The notes beneath the pieces are model-generated. The model did not search any database, was not told the origin of the DNA, and saw only the letters and a program-made list of their open reading frames with translations. 64,000 nt of DNA from NCBI RefSeq assembly GCF_028198145.1, contig NZ_CP116338.1, positions 682,001 to 746,000 on the forward strand. Direction: 5' to 3'. Source of the DNA: Microbacterium sp. nov. GSS16. Lineage in GTDB: Bacteria > Actinomycetota > Actinomycetes > Actinomycetales > Microbacteriaceae. Both the position numbers and the translations under genes were made by a program. Below, piece after piece: positions 1-51,183 of the stretch (positions within the stretch are counted from its first letter, which is position 1; each line of letters starts with the position of its first letter).

Positions 1-219
1 TGTGCCGAAGTGAGTTCGCTCGGTCTTGTGCAGTTGTTCCCAGGAGTAACGCCCGGTTCGCTGGCCGTCGTAGAGCTGATCAAGGGTCCGGCGCATGAGC
101 TTGCCCAGCCGCAGCCCTGTTGGGTCTGCGTTCCTGAAGGCATTGAAGACGCTGATCAGCTCTGTGTCGGTCTCACCCTCCAGCGGGTCAGCCTCCCAGC
201 CGTCGAGCAATGAAGACAT
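1..219 (-). CDS. NaeI-like type II restriction endonuclease (N-terminal part, runs off left edge)
   Basis: The first 73 codons are present, starting at an ATG that directly follows the methyltransferase stop codon (TGAATG). The translation contains LDQLYDGQRTGRY followed by QLHKTERTH, which I recognise as the conserved N-terminal block of restriction enzyme NaeI. NaeI cuts GCCGGC, is dimeric and needs a second effector site. The catalytic residues lie beyond the window edge, so activity cannot be judged. The adjacent m5C methyltransferase and Vsr gene support a complete type II system. Base composition is lower in GC than most of the window, suggesting acquisition by transfer. The family match is from memory of the NaeI sequence; the recognition site is inferred. 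Confidence 0.75.
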   Translation of the reverse strand, partial: MSSLLDGWEADPLEGETDTELISVFNAFRNADPTGLRLGKLMRRTLDQLYDGQRTGRYSWEQLHKTERTHFGT

Positions 220-1479
220 TCAGCTGACTCGGTTCCGAAACCGCGTGACAACATCGTGGCGCCAGTGGTCCGATTGCCCGGTGAACCCCTTGAACTCTCC
301 GAGAAGATATCGCTCGACACCACCGTCATCGATTCGATGAAGCTCGAAATCACGGCCGATGGCCGCAAGCCTCTGCTGGACTGCCGCCTCGCTGCCTTGA
401 TTGTGAGCATCGACTAGCTCAGCAAGACTCAACGCACCTTCACTAGCCGCAAGCGCTCGATACACCGGGTCGTGGACCTCTACGACCCCGGGCTCAGCGG
501 TCCTGGGAAGACTGTCACGCGTCATCGCGGACCTGATGCTCTGTCCTACCGCTTCGGCGACCGGCGGAGGGAAGGCGTTACCGATCTGCCTGTACTGTGA
601 CGTCTTGCGGCCAGAGAATCGGTAGTTGTCCCCCGCTGCCCATCCCTGGATACGAGCCGCCATCTCGATGGTCAGGCGTGGGGGCGTGGTGCGGAAGGAC
701 AGTGACTTTCGGTTGGGAGCCATGTCTGCGATTCCGCGGCCATCGACATGGAGTTTCGCCCAGCCGGCCTTCGCCCGCGTCGGGCCCAGGTCTGCTCCAC
801 CGTGCTTCTTGCTGCCACCGACAAGGGTCGGACCCACATCGTTGGCGGCATGGCGCCAAGCATCTGCGTACTTCCAGCCATCCGCAGCCATGAGGTCGTG
901 CAGGGCATCCCCGACAGTGACCCGAGGGCCCGGATTTGGTTCGGGCCAATGGAAATAGCGCATATCGTCTGCGGGCATTGCGACGAGCACGAAGCGCGGG
1001 CGCAACTGCGGAACGCCGAAGTCAGCCGCGTGGAGCAACTTCCACTCACCTACATAGCCAAGTTCAAGAAGGCGATCAAGCACTCGCTGCCGGTATGCCG
1101 CAAACCGCGGCGCGGACAGACCTCGGACGTTCTCGAGCATCACTGCACGGGGACGAAGCACAGCAACCTGCTCAATGGCCCACGCAAAGAGGTCCCGCTC
1201 GTCGGACGTACCGAGCTGCTTTCCAGCAGCTGAGAACGGCGGGCAAGGCACTCCTCCGGCAAACAGATCGACGCCCGCATAGTCGCGAGGGTTCCACAGT
1301 TCCGGATCAGCAACATCGCCAACGACGACGGGGACCTCGAGGTTGGTGCGCAGGGTGTCGGCCGCGGTCTCGTCGATTTCGACCGCTAGACGATGGGTGA
1401 AACCCGCCTTGTGCAGACCAAGGGACTGCCCACCGGCGCCCGCACACACCTCAACGACGCCGAAGCCCTCATCACTCAC
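220..1479 (-). CDS. DNA (cytosine-5) methyltransferase of the NaeI-like system
   Basis: This protective methylase transfers a methyl group from SAM to cytosine C5. I start it at the GTG at 1479, which has GCAGG just upstream and gives 419 residues, close to M.NaeI. An upstream in-frame ATG at 1617 would add 46 non-conserved residues and overlap the divergent vsr gene. Visible motifs are motif I (VCAGAGGQSLGL, residues 11-22), the catalytic PCPPFS loop with Cys79, ENVRG at 116-120, QLRPR near 158-162, and the C-terminal motif IX-X block ending RQIGNAFPPPVAEAVG. About 90 further C-terminal residues are specific to this group. The stop codon abuts the restriction gene, so the two are probably co-transcribed, methylase first. 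Confidence 0.93.
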   Translation of the reverse strand: MSDEGFGVVEVCAGAGGQSLGLHKAGFTHRLAVEIDETAADTLRTNLEVPVVVGDVADPELWNPRDYAGVDLFAGGVPCPPFSAAGKQLGTSDERDLFAWAIEQVAVLRPRAVMLENVRGLSAPRFAAYRQRVLDRLLELGYVGEWKLLHAADFGVPQLRPRFVLVAMPADDMRYFHWPEPNPGPRVTVGDALHDLMAADGWKYADAWRHAANDVGPTLVGGSKKHGGADLGPTRAKAGWAKLHVDGRGIADMAPNRKSLSFRTTPPRLTIEMAARIQGWAAGDNYRFSGRKTSQYRQIGNAFPPPVAEAVGQSIRSAMTRDSLPRTAEPGVVEVHDPVYRALAASEGALSLAELVDAHNQGSEAAVQQRLAAIGRDFELHRIDDGGVERYLLGEFKGFTGQSDHWRHDVVTRFRNRVS

Positions 1480-1568
1480 CCTGCAATCGTAAGCCTGGCT
1501 ACGGACACTGTTCCGATGGATCGCCGCTCGCTCGCCGAGGCGACGAGTGACCGCTCTAGCATCGATCC

Positions 1569-2018
1569 ATGAATCGATCCGGCCGCCACGATCATGCCAT
1601 CCAGTCACCGTCGGCAACTTCAGAGGGTCGGCGACGGAACATGCAAGCGAATCGTCGGCGCGACACCAAGCCGGAGCTGATTCTCCGGTCCGCGCTCCAC
1701 CGTGCGGGCTACCGGTACCGGTGCGACCTCAGGCTCGACCTCGAGGGCGGGAGGGTGCGGCCGGATATCGTCTTCACCCGCCGACGCATAGCGATTCTTG
1801 TCGACGGATGTTTTTGGCACTGCTGCCCGATTCACGGCAGCCGCCCGTCGGTCAACGAAGACTACTGGTCGCCAAAACTGTTGAGAAACGTTGAACGCGA
1901 TCGGAGGAACGACAGCCTCCTCGAAAGCGCAGGCTGGACAGTCATACGAATCTGGGAGCACGTACCAGTCGCGGATGCATTGGAACGCGTGCGTCTTGTG
2001 CTGAATGCTGAGGACTAA
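1569..2018 (+). CDS. vsr: Very short patch repair endonuclease (Vsr)
   Basis: Vsr nicks DNA 5' of the T in T:G mismatches that arise when 5-methylcytosine deaminates, so it normally accompanies m5C methylases such as its neighbour here. The 149-residue product has the family features: RRDTKPELILRSALHRAG near residues 30-47, the catalytic Asp in VRPDIVF (Asp66), and the FWHCCPIHG zinc/active-site block at 82-90. It is divergent from the methylase with roughly 90 bp between the preferred starts, leaving room for two promoters. An internal ATG at 1641 is possible, but the residues before it (SEGRRRNMQANRRR) look family-like, so I keep 1569. Confidence 0.93.
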   Translation: MNRSGRHDHAIQSPSATSEGRRRNMQANRRRDTKPELILRSALHRAGYRYRCDLRLDLEGGRVRPDIVFTRRRIAILVDGCFWHCCPIHGSRPSVNEDYWSPKLLRNVERDRRNDSLLESAGWTVIRIWEHVPVADALERVRLVLNAED

Positions 2019-2046
2019 GCAGGACCTCCCTGCTACCGTCGCCAGT

Positions 2047-2373
2047 ATGCCGACCCCCGCAACGCTGCAAGCACTCCGCGACTTCGCCGTCGAACGTGAC
2101 TGGGAGCAGTTCCACTCCCCTGAGAACCTCGCGAAGTCGATCTCGATCGAGGCGGCAGAGCTGCTCGAGCTGTTCCAGTGGGGGCAGACGCCCGACCAGA
2201 CGCGAGTAGAAGAAGAGCTCGCTGACGTGCTCACCTACTGCTTCCACATGGCGGCAAGGCTCGGCGTCGACATCGATGAGATCGTGCTGAGCAAACTCGA
2301 GAAGACACGCGCGAAGTACCCAGTCGATCTGTCAAAGGGTCGCATCACCAAGTACACCCATCTGCAGCGATGA
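2047..2373 (+). CDS. MazG-like nucleotide pyrophosphohydrolase
   Basis: This is a compact all-alpha NTP pyrophosphohydrolase of 108 residues. The Mg-binding acidic signature is visible as SIEAAELLELFQW (around residues 33-45) and EELADVLTYCFHMA (around 58-71), as in MazG/RS21-C6-type enzymes. I chose the ATG at 2047 because the family N-terminus (TLQALRDFAVERDW) follows it closely; an upstream ATG at 2005 would add 14 unrelated residues. Its stop overlaps the start of the next gene (ATGA), so the two are translationally coupled. Such enzymes hydrolyse (d)NTPs to monophosphates. In this defence context it may deplete nucleotides or clean up modified ones, which is inference. Confidence 0.88.
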   Translation: MPTPATLQALRDFAVERDWEQFHSPENLAKSISIEAAELLELFQWGQTPDQTRVEEELADVLTYCFHMAARLGVDIDEIVLSKLEKTRAKYPVDLSKGRITKYTHLQR

Positions 2374-4097
2374 GCGAGTTCAGCATCGAACGGCTCCCCT
2401 TCGAACGTCAGCACGTCGACGTGTGGGCGCGCAGCGATGCGCAGCACACCGACTGGCCGGTCGTCTACGTGCTCGACAGCTCGGGTCGCAGCAAAAAGCT
2501 CTATGTCGGCGAGACAGTGAATGCGGCATCGCGGATGCGGCAGCACCTCGCCAGCTCCAAGAAAGACGAAGGCCTCGATTCGATTCGCGTCGTCATCGGC
2601 GAGCGCTTCAACAAGTCGGTCTGCCTCGACCTCGAATCGCACCTGATCCGCTGGTTTCACGGAGACGGTCAGTACAGCATCCTGAACGGCAACGACGGAC
2701 TCAGCGATGCGCGCTACTACGACCGCGACATCTACCGCGAGTCCTTCCGTGATGTCTTCGAGGCGCTGCGGGCCGAAGGACTGTTCAGTCGCAGCATCCC
2801 GCAGATCGAGAACAGCGACCTCTTCAAGCTGTCGCCTTTCAAGGCGCTCACCGACGATCAGGCCATCGCGATCGAAGACATCGTCGAGGGCCTGCTGGCC
2901 GATCTTCAGCATCCGGATGTCCGCTCGACCCTCGTCGTGCAGGGTGATCCCGGCACCGGCAAGACGATCATCGCGATCTTCCTGATGAAGCTGCTCGCCG
3001 ACATCCGCGACTACCAGGATCACGACGACATCGAGCCCGACTCGATGTTCGCCGAGTTCTTCACCGCCGAGAATCGTGAGCTGCTGCGCGATCTGAGGAT
3101 GGCGCTCGTGATTCCGCAGCAGTCGCTGCGCCAATCGGTACGGCAGGTGTTCAAGAAGACCCCGAAGCTCGACCCGGCGATGGTGCTCACGCCGTTTCAG
3201 GTCGGGGAGTCGGATGCCATGTTCGACCTGATCCTCGTCGACGAGACCCACCGGCTCAATCAGCGTGCGAATCAAGCATCCAGTGTGCAGAACAAGAAGT
3301 TCCGCGAGATCAACGAGAAGCTGTTCGGTTGCGACGATCCGTCGCGCACACAGCTCGACTGGATCAAGGCGCGCGGCCGCCACCAGCTGCTACTCGTCGA
3401 CGGGGAGCAGACTGTTCGGCCGCACGACCTCGCGCCGGCGACTCTCGAGCAGGAGCTTCGGGATGCCAAGAACTCGCACCGCCACTTCCGACTGACCACG
3501 CAGATGCGGGTGCGCGCCGGTGCGGACTACGTCGAGTACATCCGTGCGCTTCTGCGCGGCGAGCGTCCGCAACGCCCCGATCTCGGCGACTACGACCTAC
3601 GCTTCTTCGACGACCTCGGCGAGATGCGTCGCGCGATACGAGCTCGCGACCGCGAGATCGGGCTGTCACGCCTTGTCGCCGGATATGCGTGGGACTGGGT
3701 GTCGCGCCGCGATCCCTCGGCGTTCGACATCGAGATCGACGGCGAGCGTATGCGCTGGAACAGCACCGATAAGGACTGGATCAACGCTCCCGGATCACCG
3801 GAGGAGGTCGGCTCTATCCACACCGTGCAGGGCTACGACCTGAACTACGCCGGCGTGATCATCGGTCCGGATCTGCGTCTTTCGTCGCCTGAGGTGATCG
3901 TCGCGGATCGCGAGGCGTACCGCGACAAGAAGGGCAAGGAGAACACCGGGCATCTGAGGGACGCCTTCGGCGACGACGACCTGCTCGTGTTCATCCGGAA
4001 CATCTACGGGGTGCTGCTGACGCGAGGGATGCTGGGGACGTATGTGTATGTGTGCGACGCAGGATTGCGGGAGCGGCTTCAAGGCTGGCTCGAGTAA
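2370..4097 (+). CDS. GIY-YIG domain fused to DUF2075 (Schlafen-like) helicase/ATPase
   Basis: A 575-residue two-domain protein. Residues about 28-115 form a GIY-YIG nuclease-like domain: VVYVL (31-35), LYVGE (44-48), Arg55 and a candidate metal-binding Glu89. Residues about 160-575 form a P-loop DUF2075 domain with Walker A GDPGTGKT (192-199), Walker B LILVDETHRL, a QMR motif after the sensor region and a C-terminal SIHTVQGYDLNYAGVIIG helicase motif. It starts inside the stop codon of the MazG-like gene. Combining a nuclease with a superfamily-1-like motor, next to a restriction system, fits an antiphage role, but no function is established from sequence alone. There is no signal peptide, so it should be cytoplasmic. 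Confidence 0.85.
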   Translation: MSEFSIERLPFERQHVDVWARSDAQHTDWPVVYVLDSSGRSKKLYVGETVNAASRMRQHLASSKKDEGLDSIRVVIGERFNKSVCLDLESHLIRWFHGDGQYSILNGNDGLSDARYYDRDIYRESFRDVFEALRAEGLFSRSIPQIENSDLFKLSPFKALTDDQAIAIEDIVEGLLADLQHPDVRSTLVVQGDPGTGKTIIAIFLMKLLADIRDYQDHDDIEPDSMFAEFFTAENRELLRDLRMALVIPQQSLRQSVRQVFKKTPKLDPAMVLTPFQVGESDAMFDLILVDETHRLNQRANQASSVQNKKFREINEKLFGCDDPSRTQLDWIKARGRHQLLLVDGEQTVRPHDLAPATLEQELRDAKNSHRHFRLTTQMRVRAGADYVEYIRALLRGERPQRPDLGDYDLRFFDDLGEMRRAIRARDREIGLSRLVAGYAWDWVSRRDPSAFDIEIDGERMRWNSTDKDWINAPGSPEEVGSIHTVQGYDLNYAGVIIGPDLRLSSPEVIVADREAYRDKKGKENTGHLRDAFGDDDLLVFIRNIYGVLLTRGMLGTYVYVCDAGLRERLQGWLE

Positions 4098-32462: not shown

Positions 32463-32798
32463 ATGACCGATCCGCACACCGTGCTGCTGCACGTCTCCAG
32501 CCGACCCGAAGACGTCGCCCGCTCGATCGGCACCGCGCGCACGCTGCACCGGAGCCGTCCCGATCACCGAATCCGCATCATCGTGAACGGTCCGGCCATC
32601 ACAGGGGTGACCGCGGATGCCACGCCACTCGACCTCTCGCACCTGCCCGCGACCGCGGTGATCGAGGCGTGCGAGGTGGGCATGCGGGCCCACGACATCG
32701 TCGCAGAGCAGCTGCAGCCGGGCGTCACCACGGTTGCGTCGGCCGTGGTCGCGCTGGTCGACGCGCAGTTCGCCGGCGCCGCCTGCGTGCGGATCTGA
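32463..32798 (+). CDS. DsrE-family-like protein
   Basis: A 111-residue protein with an alpha/beta pattern: TVLLHVSSRPEDV, HRIRIIVNGPAITGV and the ending GMRAHDIVAEQLQPGVTTVASAVVALVDAQFAGAACVRI. The middle IVNGPA and the C-terminal LQPGVTTV...AQ..GA..IRI match the DsrE/YchN-like group that includes sulfur-relay and uncharacterised proteins. It lacks an obvious catalytic Cys of the sulfur-transfer type. It starts eight bases after the frameshifted gene. Its last bases lie inside a 28-bp copy of that gene's 3' end, and a truncated paralog lies at 46148-46264. Confidence 0.65.
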   Translation: MTDPHTVLLHVSSRPEDVARSIGTARTLHRSRPDHRIRIIVNGPAITGVTADATPLDLSHLPATAVIEACEVGMRAHDIVAEQLQPGVTTVASAVVALVDAQFAGAACVRI

Positions 32799-43595: not shown

Positions 43596-46223
43596 ATGCT
43601 CGACACGTCACCGGCCGCCGATCCGTTCGTCCGCGTCCGCGGCGCCCACGAGAACAACCTGCGCGGCGTCGACGTCGACATGCCACGCGACCGCATCGTC
43701 GCCTTCACCGGCGTCTCGGGCTCGGGCAAGTCGTCGCTCGCATTCGGCACGATCTTCACCGAGGCGCAGCGCCGCTATCTCGAATCCGTCGCCCCGTACG
43801 CACGTCGGCTGATCCAGCAGGGCCACGACCCGCACGTCGACTCGATCACCGGACTGCCGCCCGCGGTCGCGCTGCAGCAGCGGCGCGGCGCGCCCAGCTC
43901 GCGCTCCAGCGTCGGCACGGTCACCACGCTGTCGAACTCGCTGCGCATGCTGTTCTCGCGCGCCGGCACCTACCCCGAAGGCGTCACCGAGCGCCTCGAC
44001 TCCGACGCCTTCTCGCCCAACACGGCCGCCGGCGCCTGCCCGCGTTGCCACGGCGTGGGCGTCGTGCACGACGTCACCGAGGATTCGCTCGTGCCCGACC
44101 CCTCGCTCAGCATCCGCGACGGCGCGATCGCCGCCTGGCCCGGCGCATGGCAGGGCAAGAACCTGCGCGACATCGCCATCACCCTCGGCTACGACGTCGA
44201 CCGCCCCTGGCGTGATCTGCCGCAGGCCGACCGCGACTGGCTGCTGTTCACCGACGAGCAGCCGGTCGTGCAGATCATCCCGCAGCGCGACCGCATCGAG
44301 AAGCCCTACAACGGCCGCTTCTGGAGCGCGAAGAAGTACGTCTTCCACACCCTCGCCGACTCGCAGAGCGCCATGATGCGCGCCAAGGTGCTGCGCTTCA
44401 TGCGCTCCGGCCCGTGCCCGCTGTGCCACGGCACCGGGCTGCGCCGCGAAGCCCTCGCAGTCACCTTCGCGGGGCGCTCGATCGCCGAGCTGAACGCTCT
44501 GCCGATGACCGAGCTCGCCGAGGTGCTGCGCCCCACCACCGAGATCACCGACCCCGGCGCGGCGCTGCCCACCGCGGCCAGCGGCGAGCGCACCGACGTC
44601 GCCGTCGCGATCGCCGCCGACCTGCGCGCCCGCATCGGGGTGCTCTGCGACCTGGGCCTCGGCTACCTCGGCCTCGGCCGGGTGACCACCACGCTCTCCC
44701 CCGGCGAGATGCAGCGCCTGCGCCTGGCCACCCAGCTGCGGTCGGGACTGTTCGGCGTCGTCTACGTGCTCGACGAGCCCTCGGCAGGCCTGCACCCGGC
44801 CGACGCCGAGCCGCTGCTCGAGGTGCTCGAGCAGCTCAAGCGCTCGGGCAACTCGGTGTTCGTCGTCGAGCACAACATGGACGTCGTCCGCCGCGCCGAC
44901 TGGGTCGTCGACGTCGGCCCCGCCGCAGGCGAGGGCGGCGGCGAGGTGCTCTACAGCGGCCCCGTCGACGGCCTCGAGAAGGTGGATGCCAGCCTCACCC
45001 GGCCCTTCCTCTTCCCCTCCGCGCAGGGCGAGCGTGAGGCCGCACGCGAGCGCCGTGAAGCGGCCGGGTGGCTGCGCGTCGACGGCATCCGGCTGCACAA
45101 CCTCCACGACGTCGACGTGGCGATCCCGCTGCAGACCCTCGTCGCCGTGACCGGCGTCTCGGGCTCGGGCAAGTCGACCCTCGTCAGCCGGGTGCTGCAC
45201 CAGGTGGTGCGCGATCACCTGCATCCGGATGCCGAGGCCGCCGACCCCACAGAAGACGAGACCGACTCCGATGAACCGGGGATCGCGGAGGCGACCGCAC
45301 CGTCCGACATCGACGTGCTCACCGTGCGATCGACCGACGGGCTCGAGCTCGTCGACCGACTCGTGCGGGTCGACCAGAAGCCCATCGGCCGCACGCCGCG
45401 CTCGAACCTCGCCACCTACACCGGGCTGTTCGATGCGGTGCGCACGGCTTTCGCGCGCACCGACCTCGCCCGCGAACGCGGCTACACCGCCGGGCGCTTC
45501 TCGTTCAACGTGCCCGGCGGGCGCTGCGAGACCTGCCAGGGCGAGGGCTTCGTCGCCGTCGAGCTGCTCTTCCTGCCCGGCAGCTACGGCCGCTGCCCCA
45601 CCTGCCACGGCGCCAGGTACAACGACGAGACCCTCGAGGTGCGCTGGCACGGGCACTCGATCGCCGACGTGCTCGCGCTCACCGTCACGCAGGCTGCGGA
45701 CGTGCTCGCCGAGATCCCCGCGGCGGCGCGCAGCCTGCGCGCGCTGCTCGACGTCGGGCTCGGGTATCTGCGCCTCGGCCAGCCTGCCACCGAGCTGTCG
45801 GGCGGCGAGGCGCAGCGCATCAAACTCGCCACCGAGCTGCAGCGAGTGCGCCGCGGGTACACGCTCTACCTGCTCGACGAGCCGACGACCGGACTGCACC
45901 CCGCCGACGTGCGCCTGCTGCTCGCGCAGCTGCACGCCCTCGTCGACGCGGGCGACACGGTGGTCGTGGTCGAACACGACATGAACGTCGTCGCCGACGC
46001 CGACTGGGTCATCGACCTCGGGCCGTCCGGCGGCGACGCGGGCGGGCGGATCGTCGCGACGGGAACCCCGGATGCCGTCGCCGCAGCGTCCGGGAGTCGC
46101 ACGGCTCCCTATCTCGCGGCCGCGCTCGCGCGCCGTGCGAGGGCGGCATGCGCGCGCACGAGATCACCGAAGACGACCTGCAGCCCGGCATCCGCACCGT
46201 CGCCGCCGCGATCGTCGCCCTGA
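43596..46223 (+). CDS. UvrA-like ABC ATPase (excinuclease A paralog)
   Basis: An 875-residue UvrA-family protein with two ATPase halves: GVSGSGKSS near residue 40 and GVSGSGKST near residue 525, each followed by an LSGGE/LSPGE signature and a DEP box ([30 protein letters not shown]). Zinc-binding CxxC pairs are [24 protein letters not shown] and CPTCHGARY. It is shorter than housekeeping UvrA, like paralogs linked to drug resistance or accessory repair. The last about 25 residues (from [11 protein letters not shown]) are Arg/Ser-rich and unlike UvrA, because the frame continues into a truncated DsrE-like gene in another frame, so the natural stop has been lost. Confidence 0.9.
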
Positions 46224-46264
46224 CCGATGCGCAGTTCGAGGGCGCGGCGTACATCCGGCTCTGA
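46148..46264 (+). pseudogene. C-terminal remnant of a DsrE-like gene
   Basis: A 38-codon frame ([18 protein letters not shown], ending DAQFEGAAYIRL) matches the last third of the DsrE-like protein at 32463-32798 (MRAHDIVAEQLQPGVTTV, DAQFAGAACVRI). The first two thirds are absent and are replaced by the 3' end of the UvrA-like gene, which overlaps it in another frame. This marks a deletion or recombination junction at about 46143. Confidence 0.75.
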
Positions 46265-46285: not shown

Positions 46286-47608
46286 TCACGCGGAGGCGGG
46301 CACCACTTCAGCGAGATGCCGCGGCAGACGAGCGACGAACTCGTCGGCCATCTCGATCGGGTCCTTGTAGTCGACGAGCTCCGAGATCAGCGGACCGACC
46401 GACTGACGCTCGGCGCGCTCTCTCCACTCCTCCACGAAGTCGATGACGGCCGGCATCCGATTCGTGTTGCCTGAGAGCCACAGCACTGTCGGTGCGTCGG
46501 GCGAATCGCTCTCGTAGAACGCGATGCCCTGGCCTGCACGGCTGATCCGAAGCGCCCCGATCCCCACTCCGCGGAGCGGCTCCGCGGTCGCGTAGCGGAC
46601 GTTCCGGGAGATGTCGTCCGCATTCCGGCCCGTCAGGCGTGCCGCGAACTGCGAGATGAAGCTCTGCACGCCCGGGTCTTTTCGGTGGATCTGCTTCGGG
46701 CCCTCGGACGGAGGCCGAGGAACCGAGGCGAGCGGCGAGAATTCGCTCTCCCAGTTCGCCGTCCGCGCCGCCTCGGCCTGCGGGATGCTGCGGCTGAGCC
46801 GGCCTCCGCCGTCGCGCCACCACTGCGCGCCGTCGAGAGTGAAGCGCAGCAGCTGAATCTCGTAGTAGGGACGCTTCTGACCGTCCACCGTGATCGGCAG
46901 ATGCACGCCGAGCACGTGCGAGGTCAGCGGCGCCCGCGGCCGGTCGTCATCCGGCAGATCGACCCGCAGGTGGCCGCTCGTGTCGACGGCCACTGCTGCG
47001 GCCCAATCGCTGCTCGGCTCCGACCCGGGCGTCGGCGACATGGCCTCACCGCGGTCTTCGGCATGAGCGCGGTTGATGGGCAGAAACCATGTGCCGGGTG
47101 GGATGACCGCTTCTCGATTGCGCAGTTCGAGGGGGGATTCGCCATTTTTCACGGTGACCACCAGGTCGACATCGCGCACCAATGTCGACCCGTTGTTGAT
47201 GACCACCACGCCCAGATAGCTCCCCCGCTGATCGGAGTGAGCGGTTTCCGCGACCCAGGCAGTCACCTGTTCAGCGCGAGCGCGATCCGCGACCTCGAGA
47301 TTCGCCTCCCGCTCGGCGACCACATGCCGACGCTGCCCGAGCGCCACTGAGATGGTCACGACCAGCACGAGGGTGTTGAGTATGGGGCCGAGCAGACCTC
47401 CGAAGGTGTCGCCGACGGCGCCGAGGGGAACGGTTTGCTCGATGGCCGGGGGCAGCGGCAGACCGGCGAGGGTGTGCAGGCCGATCCACACCAGCACGAC
47501 CAGCGACCAGACCAGCATCGCCGCGACGGGAGACAGCAGCACCACCAGCCCCCAGAACCACGGGCGACGCCACCAGGCCGATCCCCCGTCGACCGAACGC
47601 CCCCTCAC
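46286..47608 (-). CDS. Two-helix membrane protein, last gene of the nuclease operon
   Basis: A 440-residue protein not assigned to a family. Two hydrophobic helices near the N-terminus (about residues 17-50 and 70-93: FWGLVVLLSPVAAMLVWSLV and LLGPILNTLVLVVTISVAL) are followed by a basic heptad-like linker and a large soluble region with a beta-rich stretch (GVVVINNGSTLVRDVDLVVTV) and a C-terminal alpha/beta part. Its GTG start overlaps the nuclease stop by four bases. A membrane-anchored partner to a nuclease operon could sense infection or act as the membrane-damaging effector, which is inference. Confidence 0.6.
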   Translation of the reverse strand: MRGRSVDGGSAWWRRPWFWGLVVLLSPVAAMLVWSLVVLVWIGLHTLAGLPLPPAIEQTVPLGAVGDTFGGLLGPILNTLVLVVTISVALGQRRHVVAEREANLEVADRARAEQVTAWVAETAHSDQRGSYLGVVVINNGSTLVRDVDLVVTVKNGESPLELRNREAVIPPGTWFLPINRAHAEDRGEAMSPTPGSEPSSDWAAAVAVDTSGHLRVDLPDDDRPRAPLTSHVLGVHLPITVDGQKRPYYEIQLLRFTLDGAQWWRDGGGRLSRSIPQAEAARTANWESEFSPLASVPRPPSEGPKQIHRKDPGVQSFISQFAARLTGRNADDISRNVRYATAEPLRGVGIGALRISRAGQGIAFYESDSPDAPTVLWLSGNTNRMPAVIDFVEEWRERAERQSVGPLISELVDYKDPIEMADEFVARLPRHLAEVVPASA

Positions 47609-49077
47609 GAGGCGTCCGCGATCGGATAGACCTGGGGATCGCCCGTCTGCTGGAAGTGACGGATGACAGGCAGGTGCGCGATCACGCCGACCCGGCCGGG
47701 GCGTCGGTGTCCGAGGTTCCAGTGCACGCGGTAGCGCTTGCCGTCATCGAAGGTGATGGCTCCGATGCGCTCGCGCATGTCGATCTCGGTCCTCTTATAC
47801 CGCTTCGCGTCGGATGCGCTGTAGGGGTGATGGTCCGGGTCGTACAGCAGCGCCGTGCCGTCGTACGGATTGGCGGGATCGGGGAGGATCACGGTGCCGA
47901 CGACCGCACCGAACTTCTCCTCGAACTCGCCGATCGACGTGATCCCGTGCTCGACGACGAAGGCCTGCGCGATCTTCTGCAGCGTCTCCGTCTTCGAGAA
48001 CCTGCCGTTGCGCTTGTCACCCCAGTGGAACTTCGACGTGTCGTTCGCGAAGGAGCTCGGCCGGCTCTGCCACACGTGGGCGACGAGGCGTCGCAGTTCG
48101 ATCTCCGTGATCGGGCGTCCGAGCTCTTGATCGAGGTGCACCCGCAGCTCTTCAGGATCGATCTTCTTCGTGCGGGCGGCCTTGAAGTACTGCTTGTCAC
48201 CGCTACGCGTGTCCTCGGCGTTGACCACACCCATCTGCTGGGCCACCGAAGCGAGCTCCGCGCCGAGATCGGGGTACTCATCGAACGCGTGCGTGATCTG
48301 CTCGCCGAGCCTTCTGTCGAATCGGCGGTGGATCGTGCGGCGGAAGTCGAGCACGATCTTCGCCGCGTCCGCGTCACCCCGATCGGTGAGCAGCTGGATC
48401 ACCTCATCGAGCAGCCCCTCGAGCTGCTCGTAGGTGACGGTGCGGAACTCCGGATCCTCTGCGTGCTCGTCCTGACGGGGCGTGAGGTAGACGAAGTGGC
48501 GGCCGGCATCGTCGATGCCGCGGTAGTCGCCGGTGTCGGTCCTCCATCGGCGGATCTGCTTGCGCAGGCGAGCAGCCTGCGTCGGCTCGAGGTCCGCTGA
48601 TGCCACCGACTGCTCCATGCTCTCGAAATCACCGCGGATGACCCAGTTGTACCAGGTGGTCTGCGCTGTCAGCAGTCCGCTGCGGGTGTGCTCGCTCGTG
48701 TCGGTCTTGTTCTCGATCACCAGGGTGCGCACCGGCATCCCCTCCTCGTCGTAGTCGACGAGGAGGACGTCGATGTTGCGCCACTCCCTCGGGTGCACGC
48801 GGGCGCGCTCGGAGATCTCCGGCGCACCCTCGCCGAGGGCCGTCTGCACGAAGCGGGAGGCGAAGAACGTGCCCAGTCCGTGGTCCTCCTGCGGGTCGAG
48901 CAGCCAGCCCACCATCTTGCTGTACCGGGTCTCACCCGCGCTCGCGCCGTAGTCGACGATGTCCCAGAAATTGGGCACTGGACGCAGGATCTCGCCGACC
49001 AGGCGACTGCTGTCGCCGGTGATGAGATCTGCGAGTACCCGTGCGATGACGGTGTCATCCTGATTGAAGCTGCTCAT
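47605..49077 (-). CDS. PD-(D/E)XK nuclease superfamily protein
   Basis: A 490-residue protein. The nuclease core is at residues about 40-145: the conserved ETRYSKMVGWLLDPQEDHGLG entry, Asp103 in NIDVLLVD, and Glu122-x-Lys124 in LVIENKTDTSEH, then the YNWV helix, as in the PDDEXK_4 group. The remaining 340 residues form an unrecognised helical region and a beta-rich C-terminal domain (SASDAKRYKRTEID, ITFDDGKRYRVHWNLGH). It overlaps the genes on both sides by four bases. Such nucleases occur in anti-mobile-element systems; the target (DNA or RNA) is unknown. Confidence 0.78.
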   Translation of the reverse strand: MSSFNQDDTVIARVLADLITGDSSRLVGEILRPVPNFWDIVDYGASAGETRYSKMVGWLLDPQEDHGLGTFFASRFVQTALGEGAPEISERARVHPREWRNIDVLLVDYDEEGMPVRTLVIENKTDTSEHTRSGLLTAQTTWYNWVIRGDFESMEQSVASADLEPTQAARLRKQIRRWRTDTGDYRGIDDAGRHFVYLTPRQDEHAEDPEFRTVTYEQLEGLLDEVIQLLTDRGDADAAKIVLDFRRTIHRRFDRRLGEQITHAFDEYPDLGAELASVAQQMGVVNAEDTRSGDKQYFKAARTKKIDPEELRVHLDQELGRPITEIELRRLVAHVWQSRPSSFANDTSKFHWGDKRNGRFSKTETLQKIAQAFVVEHGITSIGEFEEKFGAVVGTVILPDPANPYDGTALLYDPDHHPYSASDAKRYKRTEIDMRERIGAITFDDGKRYRVHWNLGHRRPGRVGVIAHLPVIRHFQQTGDPQVYPIADAS

Positions 49078-49364
49078 GCAACCCTCCCGTAGTGCGAAAC
49101 ATGATGAGAAGCGGGCGCAGCGCAGTCGTGCAGATGCACCTCGGTGAGTCGCGCGAGTTCCAGCGCGTAGTGGCGTCCGCAGTAGACCTGAACCTCGGGC
49201 TCGAGGGGCTCGTCGTCTTCTCCGACGTGGCCGCCCCGCCCGATGCGGTACTCCGGCGTGGTGGTGCAGACGCTCTCATCCCATGCGCACCCGCGTGGAC
49301 GGTCTTCACCGTCGCTGTCGTCGATGCCGATGACGTCGTCTTCCACGGTCGAGCGCGTGGCCAT
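49074..49364 (-). CDS. Small acidic Cys/His-rich protein
   Basis: A 96-residue protein that overlaps the genes on both sides by four bases (ATGA each), so it is certainly translated with them. Candidate metal ligands are Cys26, Cys33, Cys62, His65, His77, His79 and Cys81 (CAWDESVC, YCGRHYALE, HLHDC). The N-terminus is rich in Asp and Glu and looks disordered. It could be a zinc-binding adaptor between the nuclease and the first protein of the operon, or a nuclease inhibitor. No family is recognised. Confidence 0.6.
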   Translation of the reverse strand: MATRSTVEDDVIGIDDSDGEDRPRGCAWDESVCTTTPEYRIGRGGHVGEDDEPLEPEVQVYCGRHYALELARLTEVHLHDCAAPASHHVSHYGRVA

Positions 49365-50455
49365 CAGTCCTCCTCGATCGCGAGCACGGCACGCAGTCCG
49401 GCTTCGGCGCGCCGGATGCCGGCCTCGAGCTCTTCCCGCGTGAGGTTCTGCTCCTCGTCGAGCCATCGCCCCCACCTGTCTTCGAACTCTGCGCGGCGGC
49501 GATGGTGCTGCTCGCGCCTCGCAGTCGACGGTGCTGAGATCTCGACCAGCGCCCCGTCGTCGTCGGTCTCGATGAGCAGATTCGAACTGCCCCACGGCAC
49601 CGGCAGAGCTATGTCGGTTCCTTCGACCCCGAGCAGAACCCAGTCGCCTGCCGCGGGGCGTGCGTCGCCGTCGCGACTCAGCGTGCTGTTGCGGGCCACC
49701 GCAGACCACGAGAGCACGGCGTCCGCCCACCAGCGGATACGCGTGCCGCCCGACATCCGGACAGTCGCCGAGGGTCGTGGGGGCAGGTGCCCCTCCCGTT
49801 CAGCGAGCGCGACCGCTGAATCCTGATTGGTCGCGACCACGATCGGAAGATATGCGACCGCTTCGTCGCCGTCCATCTTCTGCAACAGCTGCCCATCCCG
49901 CATCTCGTCGCGAAAATAGGGGTAGTCCGCGAGCACGAGCGCGATCACACGCACCCGAGTGCCCGAGAGCGCTTCATCGATCCAGGCTTGCAGGGCGGAC
50001 ACGGTCGGGAAGGAGTCGACGGCGACCTCGTGGGCGCCGTAGGCCGAGATCCCCAAGGATGAGCGCTTCACCATGCTCGAGAGCTCGTCCTGTCCCCACC
50101 GTCGTACGCTGCGCGCGCTCGCTTCTCGCTGGGCCTCTTCGAACAGGATCGCGTCGTACCAGTCCTGCAGGGCGGCCTTGCGCCTCAAGGACCTTCGGTA
50201 GGGGTGCGGCAGAGGGGTTTCCCGGCCGTCGACCCGGATGCTGCCCTGCATCGCAGCTGTGTCCGGCGAGTCCCGTCTGTGCCCATCGGTGTCCCAGATC
50301 TCGTACAGGACGTCCTCTGCGCCGGCGACCGTGGATGCGACGCGCCAGCCGAGCCGTCCGTCGACTCGGAAGAACACGAAATCGTCCGGCGTCAGAGCGC
50401 AGCCGTGCCGCGTTCGGGCGCGCTCGAGGTGCGCTTGGAGAGAGGTGGAGAACAC
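49364..50455 (-). CDS. Unknown 363-residue protein, first gene of the nuclease operon
   Basis: Not recognised. The N-terminal region (residues about 20-80) is beta-rich (DFVFFRVDGRLGWRVAS, EDVLYEIWDTDGH). The middle is alpha/beta with VDSFPTVSALQAWIDEAL and RVRVIALVLADYPYFRDEM, which could be a small nucleotide- or NAD-handling fold. A late segment GDWVLLGVEGTDIALPVPWGSSNLLIE precedes an acidic/basic helical tail. It has no membrane segment. As the first gene of a four-gene overlapping operon it may be the sensor or the regulator of the nuclease. Confidence 0.55.
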   Translation of the reverse strand: MFSTSLQAHLERARTRHGCALTPDDFVFFRVDGRLGWRVASTVAGAEDVLYEIWDTDGHRRDSPDTAAMQGSIRVDGRETPLPHPYRRSLRRKAALQDWYDAILFEEAQREASARSVRRWGQDELSSMVKRSSLGISAYGAHEVAVDSFPTVSALQAWIDEALSGTRVRVIALVLADYPYFRDEMRDGQLLQKMDGDEAVAYLPIVVATNQDSAVALAEREGHLPPRPSATVRMSGGTRIRWWADAVLSWSAVARNSTLSRDGDARPAAGDWVLLGVEGTDIALPVPWGSSNLLIETDDDGALVEISAPSTARREQHHRRRAEFEDRWGRWLDEEQNLTREELEAGIRRAEAGLRAVLAIEED

Positions 50456-50697
50456 GCTCTCAGTTTCGGGAACTTCCGTGTCCGCGAGGAGCGAACCGCT
50501 GTCCGGGATCGTCCGGTTTCGTGCGGGATCTCGGTTCCGGGCACGAGGTTCGAGGGGCCTCGCACCTCCGGCTCTGAGCTCCGACGGCGTAACCCAGCGC
50601 GCTCGGCATCACAACCCCCTCGTCGCGCGTGCGCGCGGCGGGCATCGTGAGGGTCACACGCCATCCGCATCCCGCGGGCGGCAGGAAGGGACAGGCG
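50456..50697. other. Divergent promoter region of the nuclease operon
   Basis: This 242-bp gap separates the minus-strand nuclease operon from the plus-strand oxidase-like gene. It holds no supported gene. The first 100 bases carry several GGATC/CCGG-rich short inverted motifs but no clear operator. AGGAAGGGACAGG just before 50698 is the ribosome binding site for the oxidase-like gene. Confidence 0.4.
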
Positions 50698-51183
50698 ATG
50701 ACCGACACCACCGAAGACCGCAAGAAGGTCGCCGAGCTGATCAAAGACTTCCGCTTCGCGATGCTGACGACGCGCAAGGGCGACGGCAAGCTCGTCGCCC
50801 GGCCGTTCACCGTGCAGGAGGCCGAGTTCGACGGCGACCTGTGGTTCCTGATCTCGAAGAGCTCATCCCCTGCGGAAGAGCTCGCCGCCGACGCCGACGT
50901 GAACGTCTCGATGAGCTCGAACGACGCGTGGGTCTCGCTCTCCGGAACGGCGTGGCTGGTCGACGACCGCGCCAAGATCGATGAACTGTGGAACCCGATG
51001 GTCGAGGCGTGGTTCCCCGACGGACCCGACGACCCCGACGTGGGCCTCGTGCGCTTCACGGCGGAATCGGCGGAGTACTGGGACTCCCCGGGCGGGCGCA
51101 TCGCAACGGTGTTCAGCTTCGTGAAGTCGAAGCTGACGGGAGAGCAGTACGACGGCGGCGAGAGCGGCAAGGTCGACCTCTGA
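50698..51183 (+). CDS. Pyridoxamine 5'-phosphate oxidase-like (general stress) protein
   Basis: A 161-residue split-barrel flavin- or F420-binding protein of the COG3871 type. Visible features are FRFAMLTTRKGDGKLVARPFTVQEAEFDGDLWFLI, the NVSMSSNDAWVSLSGTAWLVDD strand pair and the C-terminal WDSPGGRIATVFSFVKSKL. True PNPOx catalytic residues cannot be confirmed. ATG at 50698 follows AGGAAGGGACAGGCG. It stands alone and is probably a housekeeping or stress gene. Confidence 0.85.
   Translation: MTDTTEDRKKVAELIKDFRFAMLTTRKGDGKLVARPFTVQEAEFDGDLWFLISKSSSPAEELAADADVNVSMSSNDAWVSLSGTAWLVDDRAKIDELWNPMVEAWFPDGPDDPDVGLVRFTAESAEYWDSPGGRIATVFSFVKSKLTGEQYDGGESGKVDL

Follow-up and report, generated by a model that had tools for sequence, protein, structure and literature searches.

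The stretch analyzed here, referred to below as the window, covers 64,000 nucleotides of the genome of Microbacterium sp. nov. GSS16 (contig NZ_CP116338.1, positions 682,001 to 746,000). Between its positions 46286 and 50455, four minus-strand genes, named A to D from 5' to 3', form a genuine operon. Its function is predicted from sequence, and defense is favored with a probability of about 0.55, most plausibly in the form of a system placed at the membrane and directed against phages (or plasmids), with a nuclease as effector. This reading is supported by an operon of overlapping genes under purifying selection whose order is kept at 32-47% identity in another genome of the genus (G232), by the constant presence of B, C, and D with A, and by the match of the gene C product to the families PDC-S26 and PF14281 with invariant catalytic residues. 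It is further supported by a list of fold matches headed by nucleases, by a domain found beside a modification-dependent restriction enzyme in three of three loci, and by a mosaic divergence between strains.

The four consecutive open reading frames listed in a preliminary description of this region are present at the stated coordinates. Gene A (49364-50455, minus strand) has a GTG start and encodes 363 amino acids (aa); it is followed on the same strand by gene B (49074-49364, 96 aa), gene C (47605-49077, 490 aa), coding for the PD-(D/E)XK nuclease, and gene D (46286-47608, 440 aa, GTG start), coding for a predicted membrane protein with two helices and a soluble domain. The overlap of exactly four bases announced for every junction holds for B/C (ATGA, 49077-49074) and C/D (GTGA, 47608-47605), but not for A/B, where a single base is shared (TGATG, 49366-49362). 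Sequences resembling ribosome-binding sites precede the starts of gene B (GAGGAGG) and gene C (GGGAGGG). In comparison with Microbacterium commune Re1 (L007), the ratios of nonsynonymous to synonymous divergence (dN/dS) are approximately 0.24 for A, 0.37 for B, 0.23 for C, and 0.13 for D (dN and dS of 0.053/0.224, 0.023/0.062, 0.017/0.074, and 0.008/0.066, respectively), which indicates purifying selection on all four genes. Together with the order and overlaps kept at 32-47% identity, these values argue that the operon is more than a chance arrangement. Prediction of promoters and terminators returned none, and a repeat search returned nothing of note. As for the fixed stoichiometry of the products, it is a suggestion of the preliminary description only, drawn from the tight coupling of the genes.

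Regarding gene C, the residues proposed for its active site, D103 and E122-x-K124, are as described, and none of D103, E122, and K124 varies in an alignment of 12 sequences that includes the one from the window. The protein matches PF14281 (PDDEXK_4) in Pfam (5.1e-8, 33.5 bits for a curated cut-off of 22.3) as well as the PADLOC candidate PDC-S26 (PDLC04972, 2.9e-21), a match covering residues 36-154 of 490 and thereby the N-terminal domain only. The nuclease of G232 matches the same families (9e-30 for PDC-S26 and 2.2e-13 for PF14281). In a second look at the fold comparison, nucleases top the list, including LmuA, McrBC, and Shedu, with NucC lower down. When the profiles for C, D, and A were run against the PDB sequences, they gave a single match overall, at E 0.57. 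The gene C product can thus be assigned to the PD-(D/E)XK nucleases from its sequence and, modestly, from its predicted fold. Structure prediction, which had been suggested as a check, was modestly informative for C, but not for A, whose AF2 model (pLDDT 49) is too poor for a structure search.

The joint occurrence of the four genes could be confirmed within the genus. A profile of gene A finds matches in five of 366 genomes at a threshold of E 0.01, three of which are kept (own, G036, and G232). The two matches that were dropped are that of G061 (E 0.004), whose reading frame runs antisense to a longer predicted gene, and that of G055 (E 0.008), which looks like another protein, presumably a regulator of the IclR type. 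In all three genomes harboring A, which represent two lineages, B, C, and D adjoin it, and the distribution of the operon within the genus is patchy and rare (3/366). Gene C is found in six of 247 genus genomes, three times by its C-terminal domain only (G070, G171, and G236), and gene D in 11 of the 247, namely the three operons, six other transmembrane (TM) proteins sharing its middle region, and two apparently spurious matches (G148 and G094). At family level, the gene C profile is matched in two of 398 genomes (own and a weak one at 9.9e-4), and at order level gene D is matched in five of 297 (E 0.01), i.e., own and four partial matches; three of these four loci were inspected, and no A, B, or C adjoins the match in any of the three. 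Among the matches listed, protein databases hold further alleles devoid of gene context (P0007-P0016 and P0020); of these, P0012-P0016, including a protein of Frigoribacterium sp. PvP054, are nucleases with 48-54% identity. A search of viral contigs found no relative of any of the four genes, while the plasmid and phage searches gave one short nuclease match in each and none for D, for D of G232, or for the TM protein of locus L029 described below.

In the divergent genome G232 (L026), identity to the window over aligned codons is 36% for A, 47% for B, 34% for C, and 32% for D; the gene order is the same, all three junctions overlap by 4 bases, and the neighbors are unlike those of the window, with a DnaJ-domain protein upstream and a PemK-like toxin further along. 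These features argue for a four-gene unit kept across deep divergence at two chromosomal places. They also bear on the idea that C alone, as a single-gene nuclease of the PDC-S26 type, would be the defense unit, with A, B, and D regulating it or limiting its toxicity. PADLOC does list the family as single-gene candidates, and tblastn detected no relatives of A, B, and D in the fetched flanks of the distant PF14281 homologues L008-L012, several of these contigs being short. However, purifying selection acts on A, B, and D alike, and their order relative to C is preserved in a relative with 32-47% identity, which makes a unit reduced to C rather unlikely.

None of the three partners of the nuclease could be placed in a curated family. 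For gene A, Pfam, PADLOC, and NCBIfam give nothing even at E up to 1, and PHROG gives one family of unknown function at E 0.094; homologues of A are confined to four protein clusters among the matches listed. Gene B had been presented as a small Cys/His-rich protein, and seven such positions (C26, C33, C62, H65, H77, C81, and H88) are indeed invariant in three sequences, pointing to a probable metal site; no family match was obtained in Pfam, PADLOC, NCBIfam, or PHROG. The description of gene D as a two-helix membrane protein agrees with two hydrophobic stretches, judged by hydropathy only, at residues 16-54 and 68-92, and the same four libraries gave no accepted family match for it. With PADLOC 2.0.0 (library of 2023), A, B, and D reach no family at E up to 1, and their G232 counterparts none at E up to 0.1. 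Comparing profiles likewise revealed no similarity of A to D or C, nor of D to the TM protein of L029. The middle region of D is common to other TM-anchored actinobacterial proteins; four of them (L031, L032, L033, and L037) are each followed by two small genes that resemble a toxin-antitoxin pair, presumably of the DUF433/PIN type.

Several observations weigh against a defensive role: support for the four-gene unit comes from two lineages within one genus, the neighbors of the operon in the window are ordinary genes, and the nearest recognized defense genes lie about 42 kb before it, so that closeness to defense genes, which had been put forward as a check, is not observed. A function outside defense, either in membrane-linked DNA processing (uptake, exclusion, or repair) or as a toxin-like stress module, would fit such neighbors, the pairing of a nuclease with a membrane protein, and the presence of the middle region of D in TM proteins with no adjacent nuclease. 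Against this function stand the restriction of the operon to 3/366 genus genomes, the match of C to a defense-candidate family, and the domain shared with a restriction operon, and it is considered quite unlikely. The earlier notion of a candidate new defense system is upheld in that the genes travel together, are patchily distributed, include a match to a PADLOC candidate, and share a domain with a restriction locus; it is weakened by the distance to defense genes and by a nuclease family which is already catalogued as a single-gene candidate. In the open-licence papers searched, none on the four-gene operon was found, and neither "PDC-S26" nor "PF14281" returned any.

The C-terminal domain of gene C (approximately residues 340-490, positions 47608-48060, minus strand) is common to a protein with one TM segment encoded beside a PvuRts1I-like enzyme. 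Residues 346-487 match the C-terminal half of this protein in G070, G171, and G236 (BLASTP 3e-10 to 1e-8), where its gene directly precedes that of a PvuRts1I-like modification-dependent restriction enzyme in three of three loci (L027 8696-10455, L028 8928-10687, and L029 8919-10687). The enzyme of L029 bears PF21598 and SRA domains and matches mREase_II of PADLOC (2.6e-105), and the two other enzymes are 70-72% identical to this copy. The TM partner, for its part, is 93-95% identical among the three genomes, the enzyme only 70-72%. An assignment of the C-terminal match to an SRA domain was rejected, as the coordinates place it in the neighboring TM protein. The domain is found in 10 of the 10 rows of alignment A1, and P0017-P0019 as well as the nuclease of G232 lack it; among 189 sampled genomes of the order, it is found in the own genome and as one marginal match (E 0.006). 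Nuclease, C-terminal domain, and TM segment are thus combined in two ways, and they may act together at the membrane. Since the domain of C also occurs joined to a TM segment next to another nuclease, membrane placement of the nuclease would be part of the design. Modification-dependent (Type IV-like) restriction, where A or the C-terminal domain of C would read modified bases and C would cut, is unlikely, as Pfam reveals no SRA or other base-reading domain in A to D and as, in L027-L029, the shared domain belongs to the TM protein while the enzyme has its own SRA domain.

With regards to the mechanism of a membrane-placed defense system, gene A could be the sensor, recognizing either the invader or something produced on infection, and gene B would couple A to C via its probable metal site. 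Gene D could anchor the complex at the inner membrane, the entry point of phage DNA, and C, once triggered, would cut DNA, either that of the invader or all cellular DNA (abortive infection). In its most specific form, this scheme can be offered as a tentative possibility: an as yet undescribed anti-phage system of four components. A two-helix partner would keep the PDDEXK_4 nuclease at the membrane, a small metal-binding protein would license it, and the sensor A, for which no relatives are known, would switch it on; the C-terminal domain of the nuclease would be a module exchanged with modification-dependent restriction operons.

The operon is flanked by a UvrA-like ABC gene (43596-46223) on the gene D side and a pyridoxamine-oxidase-like gene (50629-51183) on the gene A side; genes further out, named from sequence, are presumably FHA-like and PurL-like. 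In M. commune Re1, the operon sits at the same chromosomal place. Mismatch between the two strains, counted per 250 bases, is lowest in part of the nuclease gene (0.4%) and highest at the 5' end of A (22.8%): 12.8-22.8% over window positions 50001-50750 (5' end of A and the gap before it), against 0.4-1.2% over 48251-49250. The divergence is mosaic, perhaps as a result of recombination; because synonymous divergence in A is also high, DNA exchange is a likelier cause than selection acting on A by itself. In Re1, a small and presumably DsrE-like gene (L007 12814-13248) separates the ABC gene from D; it is mostly missing in the window (242-base gap at 46001-46250), and a relative lies at window positions 32463-32798. 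At and left of the window edge, a defense island (L119, G000:C1:663500-682400, together with window 1-4097) contains the Druantia components DruK, DruE, DruL, and DruF, whose best models are mostly those of type IV, and a Type II restriction enzyme paired with a C5 methyltransferase; next come a MazG-like gene and one for a Schlafen-type helicase that carries a GIY-YIG domain. The island ends about 42 kb before the operon.

If the defense reading is correct, the nuclease systems described would gain a rare member, from actinobacteria, in which three partners are uncharacterized, PDC-S26, a candidate family existing in catalogues only, would gain a multi-gene setting, and the domain common to two kinds of nuclease operon may be a general means of placing nucleases at the membrane. 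The preliminary description found no match among known systems, which holds for A, B, and D with respect to PADLOC 2.0.0 models, but not for C, which belongs to the catalogued candidate PDC-S26. Lamassu, whose nuclease is LmuA, requires an SMC-type ATPase partner. None is present among A, B, and D, for which no Pfam or PADLOC family is above cut-off. In D, GDTFGGLLGPILN followed by a hydrophobic helix presumably resembles an AbiC-type motif; however, neither D nor its G232 counterpart matches PF16872 (putAbiC) at E up to 1. When 80 genomes of the family and 14 controls were searched for PF16872, no match appeared even in the controls, so that this search says nothing on its presence. Unlike the single-gene candidates of PDC-S26 and PF14281, both of which are matched by the nuclease domain of C (approximately residues 36-154), the operon is a conserved four-gene unit and C harbors an extra C-terminal domain. 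While the PvuRts1I-like loci differ by an SRA-bearing enzyme of another nuclease family (PF21598 and PF18491) and by the absence of A and B, they resemble the operon in the adjacency of a nuclease and a TM protein, and their TM partner carries the C-terminal domain of C.
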